Assembly: GCF_030814815.1 (NCBI RefSeq)
Contig: NZ_JAUSVR010000011.1
Span: forward strand, 62,001-126,000
Reading direction: 5' to 3'
Source of the DNA: Ancylobacter amanitiformis
Lineage (GTDB): Bacteria; Pseudomonadota; Alphaproteobacteria; Rhizobiales; Xanthobacteraceae
DNA: 64,000 bases
In this document: one piece after another, positions 25,211 through 29,661 of the stretch
How the letters are laid out: each line of letters opens with the position of its first letter
Position numbering within the stretch: position 1 is the stretch's first letter
Translations under genes and position numbers: made by a program
Notes under the pieces: generated by a model
Database searches by the model: none
The model's input: only the letters and a program-made list of their open reading frames with translations
Told to the model about the DNA's origin: nothing

Positions 25211-26266
25211 ATGCTTGATATCGGCTGGTCCGAGCTTCTGGTGATCGGCGTCGTCGCGCTTGTCGTGATCGGACCCAAGGAATTGCCGACCGTCCTGCGC
25301 AAGGTTGGGCAGGGCGTCAGCAAGCTGCGCCGCATGGCGGGCGATTTCCAGGGTCAGTTCAACGAGGCGCTACGCGAGGCGGAGCTGTCCGAGTTCAAGG
25401 ACAACATCACCGGTCTCAAGAACGATCTCGGCAATCTCGCGGCCGATGCGCACAAGAGCATCGCCAACGCCATTCCAACCAATCCTCTCCACGATATCGA
25501 GGATTCGCTGAAAGCGCCGACATCGCCGGTCGAGCGCAAGGATCTGGCTCCCGACGCGGCGGAGGGGCTGCCCCCCGAGCCGAGCGAGCTGGAACCGAAC
25601 GCCTTCGAATCGATCGAGGACGAGGTGCGCGCCGCTGCCGCTCACCTGCCCGAGGCGACCACGCCGGCGCCCGTCATCGCGCCGCCCGTGCCCGCGCTCG
25701 CGGTCAGCCCGCCGGCGGTTGCCGAGGCGAAGCCGGCTGACGGCAAGCCGGTTGACGTCAAGCCTGCCGAAATCAAGCCTGCCAGCGTGACGCCGCCATC
25801 CGCTATCGCCGATGCACCGGCGGACGAGAAGTCCAGGCGCGCGCCGCGTCGCAAGGTCGTGGCGCCAGTCGAGGTGGAAGGGGTGCAGACCGCTTTCGCG
25901 CTCGGCGATGCGTCATTGGTTGATGCGTCATCGGGTGCGCCCACCGAGGCGGCAAAGCCTGTCGCCCGATCGAACCGGGTGGCGAGCAAGACGTCGACGA
26001 CGACCGCCGATCCGGTTGCCGATCCGGCCGTGGATCCCGCGGCCAAACCGGCGCTGACCCGCGCGCGTGCCAAGCCGGTATTGCCGGCTGCGGAGAGTGC
26101 TCCGGCATCGTCGGCCACGCAGGGTGATGCCGTCAAACCAGCCAAGGCCCGCGTCGGCCAGCCGCGTGTGGCCCCGTCGCGTGTGGCCGAGTCGCGTGTG
26201 ACCGAACCGGGCGAGGCAACGCCCGTCGGCCGTGATACGACCGGAAATGAAGAGCCGCAGGTATGA
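25211..26266 (+). CDS. tatB: Twin-arginine translocase subunit TatB
   Basis: Tat receptor subunit that contacts substrates together with TatC, 351 aa. The N-terminal helix and hinge ([26 protein letters not shown]) and the amphipathic helix ([20 protein letters not shown]) identify the family. From about residue 95 the protein is a long Pro/Ala/Glu/Lys-rich disordered tail, which makes it about twice as long as E. coli TatB (171 aa). The tail contains short repeats such as [10 protein letters not shown]. Its stop codon overlaps the tatC start. Confidence 0.93.
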
Positions 26267-27057
26267 GCCAGGATGAGATCGACGCCAGCAAGGCGCCGCT
26301 GATCGAGCACCTGATCGAACTGCGCACGCGGCTGATCAAGTCGCTGATCGCGTTTTTCGTCGCGTTCATCGCCTGCTTCATGCTGGGCAAGTTCATCTAC
26401 AACATCCTGCTCTGGCCGTATGAGTTCGCGGCCGGCGGCACCGAGCATGTGAAGCTCATCTACACCGCGCCGCAGGAATTCCTGTTCACACAGATCAAGC
26501 TGGGCATGTTCGGGGCGGCGTTCATCTCCTTCCCCGTGGTGGCGACGCAGATCTACATGTTCGTCGCGCCGGGGCTTTACAGCCACGAGAAGAACGCCTT
26601 CCGCCCCTATCTGATCGCGACGCCGGTCTGTTTCGGCATCGGCGCGGCCTTCGTCTATTTCGTCGCCATGCCGCTGGCGATGACCTATTTCCTCTCCATG
26701 CAGCAGGCGGCGGGGCCGGATTCGCCGGAAATCTCCATGCTGCCGCAGGTCAGCGAATATCTCTCGCTGATCATGACGCTGATTTTCGCCTTCGGCATCT
26801 GCTTCCAGCTGCCGGTCATCCTGACGCTGCTGGCGCAGATCGGCATCGTCACTTCCGACCAGCTGAAGAAGTTCCGCCGCTATGCCATTGTCGGCGTGTT
26901 CGTGGCAGCCGCCGTGCTGACGCCCCCCGATGTGGTGAGCCAGCTCGGCCTCGCGATCCCGACGCTGCTGCTCTACGAGATTTCGGTCGTGCTGGTGCGC
27001 ATGATCGAGAAGAAGCGCGCGGCGGCCGAGGCGGCGGCGGAAAACGCCGCCACCTGA
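26263..27057 (+). CDS. tatC: Twin-arginine translocase subunit TatC
   Basis: Polytopic Tat subunit of 264 aa with six predicted helices, which binds the twin-arginine signal peptide. The family motif near the N-terminus is present ([19 protein letters not shown]), as are the conserved glutamates and [20 protein letters not shown]. The start ATGA overlaps the tatB stop. The C-terminal tail is Ala/Glu-rich. Confidence 0.96.
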
Positions 27058-27198
27058 CGCGCACGCCCATCAGCGCAGCGGCGCGGGCGCCCGGCGGCGC
27101 GCGCCGCACTTGTCGCGGGCGCCGTCATTGGGTAGTCCCCATCCCGGGATAGTTCCCGTCACGGCCGCAGACCGATCAGACGCGAAAGCGAGACGTCC

Positions 27199-28779
27199 AT
27201 GCATGACATCAAATGGATCCGCGAGGAGCCCGAGGGCCTCATCCGCGCGCTTACCCGGCGCGGCACCGACGCCGCCGAAGCGCGGGCGCTGGTGGACAGC
27301 CTGTTGTCGCTGGACGAACGCCGCCGATCCGGCATCGCCAAGCTGGAGGAACTGCAGGCGCGCCGCAATGCCGCCTCCAAGGAGATCGGCGCCGCGAAGA
27401 AGGCGGGCGACAATGATCGCGCCGAGGCGCTGATGGCCGAAGTGGCCGCGCTCAAGACCGACATTCCCGCGCTGGAAGCGGACGTGAAGGCGGCGGAGAC
27501 CGAGCTGAACGACACGCTCGCCGCCATCCCGAATGTGCCGCTCGACATCGTGCCCGAGGGCCGGGACGAGCACGACAACGTGCCGTTCGACGCCCCCGCG
27601 CATGCGGAAGCGCCCGGCAGCGCGCTGCCCATGCCGGCGCTGCGCAACTTCGCCTTCACGCCGAAGCAGCATTTCGAAATCGGCGAGGCGCTCGGCCAGA
27701 TGGATTTCGAGGCCGCCGCCAAACTCTCCGGCGCGCGCTTCGTGGTGCTGAAGAACAAGCTTGCCCGGCTGGAACGCGCCATCGGCCAGTTCTTTATCAA
27801 CACGCACACCGAAGAGCACGGGTACACCGAGGTCGCGCCGCCGATCTTGGTGAACGATGCGGCGATGTTCGGCACGGCGCAGTTGCCGAAATTCCGGGAG
27901 GATCAGTTCTCAGTCGAAACGGTAGACAAAAGCATCTCCGACTTTTCTGAGGCACTGCTATGGTTTGAAGATTTAGACAATCCAAATGCAGATCGAGAGC
28001 ATGCTGAAAAGAGTAAGGATGGAAGGCTTCTGGCCGCTTTCAATGCATGGGATCGTGCACGTAAATACAAGTCGACGAGCGCGGATGATCCGCCGCCTCC
28101 TTCCAGCGAAGTACGTAGATTGAGGGAGGCATATGCGAGGGAGTATATCGCATTTGAAAAGGGAGTGCCGGCGAACCTCTGGCTCATCCCCACCGCCGAA
28201 GTCCCCCTGACCAATCTCGTTGCCCAGTCCATCCTCTCCGAGGAAGAACTCCCGCTGCGCTTCACCGCGCTCACGCCCTGCTTCCGTGCTGAGGCCGGGT
28301 CGGCGGGGCGCGATACGCGCGGGATGATCCGCCAGCACCAGTTCAACAAGGTGGAGATGGTCTCCATCACCACGCCGGAGAAATCGCTGGAGGAGCAGGA
28401 GCGCATGCTGGCCTGTGCGCAGGCCGTGCTGAAGAAGCTCGATCTGCACCACCGCGTGGTGACTTTGTGCACCGGCGACATGGGCTTCGCCTCGGCCCGT
28501 ACCTTCGATATCGAGGTGTGGCTGCCGGGGCAGAATGCCTATCGCGAGATTTCCTCGGTCTCCACCTGCACCGATTTCCAGGCGCGGCGGATGAATGCGC
28601 GCTACCGGCCGGCCGGCGCCAAGTCCACGCGCTTCCTGCACACGCTGAACGGCTCGGGCGTCGCGGTCGGCCGCGCCATGGTGGCGATCCTCGAAAATTA
28701 CCAGAACGAGGACGGTTCCGTCACGGTGCCGGATGTGCTGCTGCCCTATATGGGCGGCGTCACCCGGATCGGCGGGTGA
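27199..28779 (+). CDS. serS: Seryl-tRNA synthetase with a ~90-residue low-GC insertion
   Basis: Class II synthetase of 526 aa that charges tRNA-Ser. The N-terminal long coiled-coil tRNA-binding arm is normal (residues ~30-115). Catalytic-domain landmarks are [48 protein letters not shown] (motif 2 region) and [19 protein letters not shown] (motif 3). Most bacterial SerRS proteins are about 420-440 aa. Here residues ~238-327 (27910-28179), between REDQF and WLIPTAE, are extra sequence where the family usually has a short loop. This segment has about 50% G+C and atypical codons (TTA, AGA, AGG, GGA), whereas flanking codons are strongly GC-rich. The frame is kept and both flanks align with the family, so the enzyme is probably functional. 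Confidence 0.95.
27910..28179 (+). other. In-frame inserted segment within serS
   Basis: 270 bp, 90 codons, no stop. My count over 27911-28170 gives close to 50% G+C in a gene that is otherwise typical of this GC-rich chromosome. The encoded residues are hydrophilic, with probable helices around [13 protein letters not shown] and [19 protein letters not shown] and a proline run DDPPPPSSE between them. There are no intein block motifs and no splice-type borders. Exact edges are uncertain by a few codons on each side. Confidence 0.85.
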
Positions 28780-28781
28780 GG

Positions 28782-28870
28782 CGTCATCCCGGACGGCCGA
28801 AGGCCGATCCGGGATCGCCTGCCGGTGGAGGGCGATCCCGGCTCTCCGCTGCGCTTCGACCGGGATGACG
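28782..28870. repeat. Intergenic palindromic element (RIME/REP-like)
   Basis: An 89-bp element between serS and surE begins CGTCATCCCGG (28782-28792) and ends with its exact reverse complement CCGGGATGACG (28860-28870). Inner segments GGATCGCC and GGCGATCC also pair, giving a long, branched hairpin. Sequences of this kind, with CGTCATCCCGG ends, are scattered between genes in many Hyphomicrobiales. It may also end serS transcripts. Confidence 0.85.
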
Positions 28871-28896
28871 GCGTTTCAGGGTAGGATCAAGTGGAC

Positions 28897-29661
28897 ATGC
28901 GCATTCTGGTCACAAACGATGACGGCATCCACGCCCCCGGCCTTGAGGCCTGCGTGCGCATCGCGCGGGCGCTGTCGGAGGATGTGTGGGTGGTGGCGCC
29001 GGAGACCGACCAGTCCGGCGTCTCGCACTCGCTCTCGCTGTCCGATCCGCTGCGGCTGCGGCAGGTGGAGGAGAAGCGCTTCGCCGTGCAGGGCACGCCG
29101 ACCGATTGCGTGATCATGGCGGTGCGCCACATCCTGAGGGATCACAAGCCCGATCTCGTGCTGTCCGGCGTCAATCGCGGGCAGAACGTGGCGGAGGATG
29201 TCGGCTATTCCGGCACCGTCGCCGGCGCCATGGAAGGCACGGTGCTCGGCATCCCCTCGGTCGCGCTGTCGCAGGCCTATGGCTTCGAGACCAAGCAGGC
29301 CCCGCCCTACACGGTCGCCGAGCACTGGGGCGCGCAGGTGGTGCGCACGCTGCTGGACGAGGGCATCCCGGCCGGCATCGTGGTCAACGTGAATTTCCCC
29401 AACCGCCCGGTGGACGAGGTGAAGGGCATCGCCGTGACCGCGCAGGGAAGGCGCGACCAGAATCTCTTGCGCATCGACCAGCGCGCCGACGGGCGCGGCA
29501 ATCCCTATTACTGGATCGCCTTCGAGAAGCGCATCTTCGAGACGGTGAACGGCTCGGACCTGCACGCGCTCGATCAGGGCTTCATCTCGGTGACGCCGCT
29601 GCGCCTCGACATGACCGACGAGCCGATGATGACCCGGCTTGCACAGGTCTTCGCGCGCTGA
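28897..29661 (+). CDS. surE: 5'-nucleotidase SurE
   Basis: Metal-dependent 5'/3'-nucleotidase and exopolyphosphatase of 254 aa. The N-terminal MRILVTNDDGIHAPGL carries the metal-binding DD. The other motifs are PETDQSGVSHSLSL, LSGVNRGQN and SGTVAGAMEG. ATG 28897 is chosen because SurE proteins start at this methionine; the GTG at 28891 is two codons earlier. It is followed 21 bp later by pcm, the usual stationary-phase survival pair. Confidence 0.95.
   Translation: MRILVTNDDGIHAPGLEACVRIARALSEDVWVVAPETDQSGVSHSLSLSDPLRLRQVEEKRFAVQGTPTDCVIMAVRHILRDHKPDLVLSGVNRGQNVAEDVGYSGTVAGAMEGTVLGIPSVALSQAYGFETKQAPPYTVAEHWGAQVVRTLLDEGIPAGIVVNVNFPNRPVDEVKGIAVTAQGRRDQNLLRIDQRADGRGNPYYWIAFEKRIFETVNGSDLHALDQGFISVTPLRLDMTDEPMMTRLAQVFAR

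Follow-up and report, generated by a model that had tools for sequence, protein, structure and literature searches.

An apparent hypervariable exchange site in the seryl-tRNA synthetase gene of Ancylobacter amanitiformis and its relatives

The housekeeping enzymes that carry out translation are regarded as slow to change, with point mutation as the main route, and additions to tRNA synthetases are common. The seryl-tRNA synthetase (SerRS) gene of Ancylobacter amanitiformis raises the question of how a G+C-poor stretch of DNA came to lie beside the active site of such an enzyme and what maintains it there. Here, we examined this gene within a window of 64 kb, i.e., the whole stretch of DNA analyzed, and compared it with serS genes of related genomes.

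RESULTS

The serS gene and its insert

The serS gene (27199..28779, forward strand) encodes a protein of 526 residues that scored 487 bits against the SerRS family profile TIGR00414 (cut-off, 301.65), and the N-terminal and core Pfam domains of SerRS were both above their cut-offs. It is flanked by what are presumably tatC-like (26263-27057) and surE-like (28891-29661) genes. The non-inserted part of the protein was assigned to the bacterial SerRS fold, and all the core residues that are invariant among 56 SerRSs (TAE, motif 2, and motif 3) were present. T332 and E334 of T332-A333-E334 (28192..28200, forward strand), which we take to be the TAE loop, were invariant in sets of 56 and 35 SerRSs, as were R363 and E365 of R363-A364-E365 (28285..28293, forward strand), presumably part of motif 2; the core residues of amino acids 482 to 492 (28642..28674, forward strand), which we assume to be the motif 3 region, were kept in the same two sets. 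Since this is the sole SerRS match in the genome, the enzyme is presumed to be active with the insert in place.

Exactly 90 residues (amino acids 238 to 327; 27910..28179, forward strand) separate DQF from WLIPTAEV in frame, and the coordinates and residue count given in the original prediction proved exact. The G+C content of the insert is 0.500, compared with 0.674 and 0.658 in the serS sequence before and after it, in agreement with the earlier description of a foreign-looking, in-frame segment of about 50% G+C. Its G+C content at third codon positions (GC3) is 0.467 versus 0.881 in the remaining serS. Only 0.06% of the 270-nt segments across the 64 kb reach so low a G+C content, and the minimum for that length (0.485, starting at 27889) overlaps the insert. 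Two solved SerRSs align up to query residues 240 to 244 and resume at residues 323 to 326, leaving the insert unmatched. The insert site is the tip of the hairpin leading into the TAE loop, and T332 begins five residues past the last insert residue, so the predicted location beside the active site holds.

Both edges were inspected. The left anchor, ten residues adjoining the insert (27880..27909, forward strand), differed at 15.5% of its 30 nucleotide positions in 37 Ancylobacter genome pairs with different insert states, versus 7.8% in the only three pairs with the same insert state (all pairs with flanks at least 88% identical). The right anchor, also ten residues (28180..28209, forward strand), forms an abrupt edge and shows few differences among 30 Ancylobacter genomes. 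A search of the insert site (27850-28240) gave neither direct nor inverted repeats of at least 10 bases, and no second copy of the insert was found in the genome, the best other match being 18 bases long (E value, 0.09). Duplication of another genomic segment and a palindromic or repeat element were thus ruled out.

In the AlphaFold2 model of the full protein (pLDDT, 86.6), four helices were predicted in the insert: amino acids 249 to 257 (27943..27969), 262 to 271 (27982..28011), 275 to 288 (28021..28062), and 302 to 321 (28102..28161), all on the forward strand. Ten-residue pLDDT means were mostly 72 to 82 but fell to 49 to 56 over the first twenty residues of the insert, the stretch in which the first helix lies. 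When the insert was folded alone (pLDDT, 75), four helices were again obtained, the first with other bounds. Fold searches with this single-sequence model, which at a pLDDT of 75 make a weak test, gave nothing at an E value of ≤0.001 in the PDB (72 matches; best E value, 1.0) or among viral models (208 matches; best E value, 0.8). Of 76 inserts compared, 63 had a stronger helical hydrophobic periodicity than the mean of their shuffles (mean z, 0.74; −0.03 for the 170-degree control and 0.08 for the frame-shifted one), although only nine of the 76 individually exceeded a z of 1.64. Cysteine made up 0.1% of the residues in the 76 compared inserts, that of the window included, versus 1.2% in the remaining protein.

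Distribution of inserts

Thirty Ancylobacter genomes, one per species, formed the only complete set. When presence and absence were mapped across their SerRSs, the site was found to hold an insert of 33 to 95 amino acids in 23 genomes and a six-residue linker in the other seven, the latter in accordance with the normal length of 5 to 10 residues stated in the original prediction. SerRS proteins of insert-free relatives are 431 to 453 amino acids long (start codons chosen by the analyst). The Ancylobacter inserts were mostly unrelated to one another. A single segment of host composition common to all close relatives, which had been named beforehand as contrary evidence, was not seen; the other such result, an assembly artifact, is ruled out by the 23 genomes with an insert at the site, several of which are one- or two-contig assemblies.

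A wider, nonrandom collection comprised 206 readable serS sequences (198 distinct) from loci L001 to L050 and L081 to L240, four of these 210 loci (L121, L129, L143, and L148) giving none. The 80 loci of the family were chosen among the best matches listed (277 of 296 genomes matched), 27 of them on the ground that their alignment ran through the insert. Among the 198 distinct SerRSs, the inserts of 18 amino acids or more fell into 86 families, 67 with a single member (phmmer; E value, 1e-3, a threshold that misses very remote kinship), and 121 inserts of at least 20 amino acids measured 20 to 97 amino acids. An insert was present in all 13 members examined of genus g65, another genus of the family, a sample that is not random, and inserts were kept within one genus in Microvirga and in genus g58.

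Inserts were also present in other Hyphomicrobiales. Among 80 named loci, 75 were readable, and 20 of these had a longer spacing at the site. The SerRS search included 24 genomes of other families of the order, and long inserts were found in two (G051 and G049) of the 13 examined for them. A sample of the class comprised 72 genomes, of which two had no match, one had the gene split over contigs, one had half of it only, and the window's own genome was set aside; 3 of the 67 others, all with a readable gap, had an insert (gaps judged by eye). The sample from other classes of the phylum, 56 genomes that share the hairpin, had none, with a gap of at most 39 nt (by eye).

Turnover between close relatives

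Insert state differed in 5 of 7 Ancylobacter pairs whose serS flanks were at least 95% identical in nucleotide sequence, in 17 of 19 pairs at 93% or more, and in 35 of 37 at 90% or more. A 30-tip genome tree was built from the serS neighborhood after removal of the 60 bases flanking the insert on each side; at least 21 changes were needed on it to account for 18 insert states. As a control, the gene for ThrRS, another class II synthetase, measured 1,701 to 1,713 nt in all 30 genomes.

The nearest relative of the window genome, G005, has serS flanks 93.2% identical to those of the window and an unrelated insert. Over 60 kb, the two genomes run colinear with an identity of about 93%, and their alignment breaks at 27908 and 28174, the insert edges, with 265 bases facing 184. 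Nowhere else in the shared 60 kb do the replaced bases exceed 80 in both genomes; the next largest break, at about 13.6 kb, measures 79 versus 199 bases, and the remaining ones are smaller. No replaced neighboring gene was found within the 60 kb. At least one of the two lineages has thus acquired a different insert state since the split, and either could be the one. The claim that the insert was recently acquired is therefore made likely by its composition and is unproved for the window copy.

Similar contrasts were obtained in other pairs. G016 carries an insert of 95 amino acids where G009 has six residues (flanks 95.9% identical), and G018 and G015, with flanks 96.4% identical, carry unrelated inserts of 43 and 59 amino acids. 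The last two genomes are colinear over 205 kb (95.1%), with six breaks of at least 60 bases among those listed; three of the breaks lie inside reading frames, namely, serS, the low-complexity tail of a 1,027-codon frame, and a short doubtful frame. We take the 1,027-codon frame to be a comEC-like gene. Its proline-rich tail differs between the two genomes (L314, from about base 1732 in G018), and a variable comEC-like DNA uptake gene would fit exchange by recombination. Elsewhere in the compared stretch, a block of 34 kb in G018 (176.2 to 210.3 kb) stands opposite 2.6 kb in G015.

Exchange of insert families between hosts

Some insert families recurred in distant hosts. Nine SerRSs, from seven genera, carry the A2 family; they occupy nine separate positions on a tree of 60 SerRSs with inserts removed (L252 and L234 being long branches), and seven members of the family have an invariant Y, G, and G. 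The well-supported branches alone force at least seven changes, and a single clade of A2 hosts was rejected (P = 1.8e-54). The window insert is itself related to one in genus g52 (25 of 81 residues identical), and that of G015 clusters with the insert of an alphaproteobacterial MAG; the SerRS of this MAG shares 46% identity with that of the window over the best segment. These relationships contradict the suggestion of a host-specific appendage. Insert alleles thus appear to cross species borders, either by recent transfer or as old shared alleles, and the site behaves as a hypervariable exchange site that is invisible from one genome.

An A2 profile run against 296 genomes of the family gave nine strong matches (E value, 3.4e-9 or better), all in serS; seven were the loci from which the profile had been built, and the other two were checked to be serS. 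Four further matches were weak (E values, 0.003 to 0.008), and the two of them examined lacked serS motifs. Similarly, a profile combining the window insert with its relative, run against 397 genomes of the order, retrieved the window's own serS plus four weak matches (E values, 0.003 to 0.009). For the two families tested, the insert pool seems to live in serS.

Composition and selection

Of 108 SerRSs with inserts of 25 amino acids or more, 104 had a lower GC3 in the insert than in the rest of the gene, the averages being 0.55 and 0.85, respectively. The offset was −0.12 for inserts common to a sister genome (n = 23) and −0.31 for the others (n = 98), as expected of incoming DNA slowly taking host composition, a contrast confounded by insert length since longer inserts deviate more (Spearman, −0.48). 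Because the apparently old A2 family is still low in GC3, its reservoir may lie in lower-G+C organisms outside the present sample. The A2 inserts of L003, L006, and L014 have GC3 values of 0.42 to 0.52 in genes at about 0.9.

Several pairs of homologous inserts were saturated in dS. The dN/dS values were low for L018/L021 (0.010/0.308) and L007/L015 (0.141/1.10), and dN was well below dS in two further pairs (0.023/0.169 and 0.104/0.573). Constraint was milder in L194/L204, L089/L115, and L099/L115, with ratios of about 0.5 to 0.6. From these comparisons, homologous inserts appear to be mostly under purifying selection while resident. The insert of L184 (genome G316) contains HSRESGNPE, which looks to us like a translated repetitive element, and a repeat insertion may account for part of its sequence.

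Searches for known relatives of the inserts

Sixty-one inserts, drawn from 89 insert sequences, were scanned against Pfam, PHROGs, PADLOC, and NCBIfam, and the matches were weak and scattered, each confined to one member. When traced, the 18 NCBIfam matches all proved to be under cut-off, as did the 9 traced of 19 Pfam matches, the other 10 having E values of 0.009 or worse. The best E values were 0.0043 for PHROG and 0.0036 for PADLOC, which shows no cut-off. The insert of the window gave one match only in these scans, to phrog_8731, of unknown function (E value, 0.013), and a PDB sequence search gave best E values of 0.21 for this insert and 0.37 for the A2 family. Three kinds of antitoxin match were recorded: the VbhA antitoxin of Pfam in two inserts belonging to a single family (E values, 0.00031 and 0.00013; 21 to 22 bits against a cut-off of 25.9), covering the second half of the model only; a Tsi2-family anti-toxin in the L166 insert (E value, 0.00029; 21.2 bits against a cut-off of 70); and a Y4mF-type antitoxin in the L198 insert (E value, 0.031).

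The window insert had no match in phages or plasmids, nor did two other inserts against phages or three others against plasmids, and none of its 11 pattern matches to viral contigs was confirmed; a phage or plasmid gene was therefore discarded. Searches with the whole SerRS gave 100 plasmid records, of which the 30 listed cover 82 to 87% of the protein and correspond to serS without a matching insert. Nine SerRSs were found in viral contigs; the eight readable ones have no insert, and the ninth lacks the motif pair. An RNA element was ruled out by an Rfam search of 27100-28900, which gave no match up to an E value of 1. Inteins begin with Cys, Ser, or Thr and end with Asn or Gln, with Cys, Ser, or Thr as the next residue. 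The window insert begins with Ser but ends with Leu and is followed by Trp, and none of the 121 inserts has intein-type ends, which rules out an intein.

DISCUSSION

At a single-copy synthetase gene, one site has been replaced by unrelated, foldable-looking domains while its flanks gained a few percent of substitutions. The combination of a fixed site, unrelated and mostly constrained helical domains, exchange between species, foreign composition, and patchy absence points to a locus that renews its alleles from external sources. The reading that we tentatively prefer, with a probability of roughly 0.45, is that the insert is a surface cassette that is exchanged horizontally and whose diversity is maintained by a conflict with some agent directed against SerRS. 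Unrelated small helical domains would be exchanged between the SerRS genes of different species by recombination in the conserved flanks, and, judging from the intact motifs, the enzyme core would stay canonical, without the insert replacing catalysis. The insert would then act as a variable shield or decoy surface adjoining the active site, keeping a putative protein antagonist, whether encoded by a phage, a mobile element, or a competitor, from binding to SerRS and inactivating it. Once the antagonist had adapted to one insert, lineages with another would be favored, a form of diversifying selection that rewards rare alleles. That the SerRS of the Xanthobacteraceae in particular is in an arms race with an undescribed class of protein antagonists, using swapped helical shields and a cross-genus allele pool residing in serS, is a possibility we put forward more cautiously still. 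A shared allele pool of this kind is similar to that of a self-recognition or immunity locus, here inside a tRNA synthetase.

Several findings count against conflict. Seven of the 30 Ancylobacter genomes do without an insert, some homologous pairs are only mildly constrained and several are saturated in dS, and the inserts of Microvirga and genus g58 resemble stable features more than products of an arms race.

Among the alternatives, a docking or regulatory adaptor, which would tie SerRS to a lineage-specific partner or location and change with that partner, fares best and is nevertheless unlikely. The partner could be a tRNA-modifying enzyme, another synthetase, or the membrane, and eukaryotic SerRS additions act in this way; the inserts, moreover, look folded and mostly constrained. 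In human SerRS, Insertion II (G254-N261) is reported to belong to the catalytic domain, close to the active site, and to contribute negligibly to aminoacylation (PMC10817482). We tentatively place it at the same position as the bacterial insert, ahead of the strand that runs into the TAE-type loop, judging from human residues 266 to 267 lying opposite query residue 328. It is, however, a feature of higher eukaryotes of about 8 residues in that account (PMC10817482), whereas the bacterial inserts reach 97 amino acids, are unrelated between close relatives, and are exchanged between genera. Unrelated domains, or none, between flanks that are 95 to 96% identical would be fast for a change of partner, and an adaptor also sits poorly with one insert family recurring in nine scattered hosts.

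That the insert is a built-in antitoxin or immunity domain, neutralizing a toxin of the same genome or of neighbors and swapped as the toxin changes, we consider distinctly unlikely. Antitoxins are commonly small and low in G+C, as the inserts are. The VbhA, Tsi2-family, and Y4mF-type matches keep this idea alive and do not support it: all are under their cut-offs, at about the level expected by chance for 61 inserts. The strong A2 matches, confined to serS, and the lack of any plasmid or phage match for the inserts searched (four and three, respectively) argue against it as well, as does the absence of a replaced neighboring gene between the window genome and G005, where an unlinked toxin is possible.

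Still more doubtful is a tolerant hairpin tip that takes up DNA readily, with inserts as near-neutral passengers arriving by recombination in the flanks. Their loose length, the insert-free Ancylobacter genomes, the mild constraint in some pairs, and the lack of a visible common function are what such passengers would give. On the other hand, other insert families are under purifying selection, helical periodicity is missing from the frame-shifted control, families recur in the serS of distant hosts, and the 56 genomes of other classes have no insert despite the same hairpin. Drift of a tolerant loop is rejected as the whole story, given unrelated sequences with sharp edges in close relatives and several constrained inserts. 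Finally, a selfish in-frame element targeting serS (intein-like, palindromic-repeat-like, or homing) would suit the fixed site in an essential gene, the foreign composition, and the patchy spread but is very improbable, since the inserts form many unrelated families without intein-type ends, repeats, or second copies; homing enzymes are also larger than inserts of this size.

Known systems offer partial parallels. Inteins interrupt essential proteins in frame at a fixed site, occur patchily, and move horizontally; the serS inserts share these traits but differ in their ends, their small size, and their many families. In hsdS, unrelated variable target recognition domains of a cytosolic protein are likewise swapped between conserved flanks, changing the DNA specificity of a restriction system, whereas serS encodes a single-copy housekeeping synthetase.

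Competing microbes do attack synthetases, SerRS included, as illustrated by the natural inhibitors albomycin (SerRS), agrocin 84 (LeuRS), and microcin C (AspRS) in the portion of the source available (PMC9032320), where the albomycin warhead is said to resemble seryl adenylate. The resistant SerRS2/AbmK is described there as a divergent second gene copy in the biosynthetic cluster (PMC9032320); it is also a SerRS variant that escapes attack, but a second copy, and the same portion describes no exchanged insert. Small-molecule inhibitors should presumably select active-site changes rather than domain exchange. Since a small active-site inhibitor fails to explain the swapping of whole unrelated helical domains, the albomycin-type protection suggested in the original prediction is left unsupported. 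In Ralstonia, metG1 and tyrS are among the candidates for balancing selection, with no insert mentioned in the part of that report available (PMC6580516). No variable or exchanged synthetase insert was described in the titles and abstract beginnings of the open-licence PMC papers searched. On that evidence, and within the open-licence literature, the combination of a synthetase addition with domain exchange between conserved flanks appears to be new.

If the conflict proposed above is real, SerRS would be under attack in Alphaproteobacteria by antagonists of an undescribed class, for which the inserts could serve as bait. If it is not, the 86 insert families would still be a rare natural series on the harmless entry of domains into an essential enzyme.

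Two minor observations concern the rest of SerRS. The protein up to DQF measures 225 residues in 15 of the 30 Ancylobacter genomes and 227 to 245 in the rest (start codons chosen by the analyst), and there may be a second, smaller length-variable region upstream of the insert. Genome G032 has two SerRSs, one (L005, on contig C42) with an insert of 97 amino acids and the other (contig C20, 33981-35249) without a gap, which may be explained by the 6% contamination listed for this genome.
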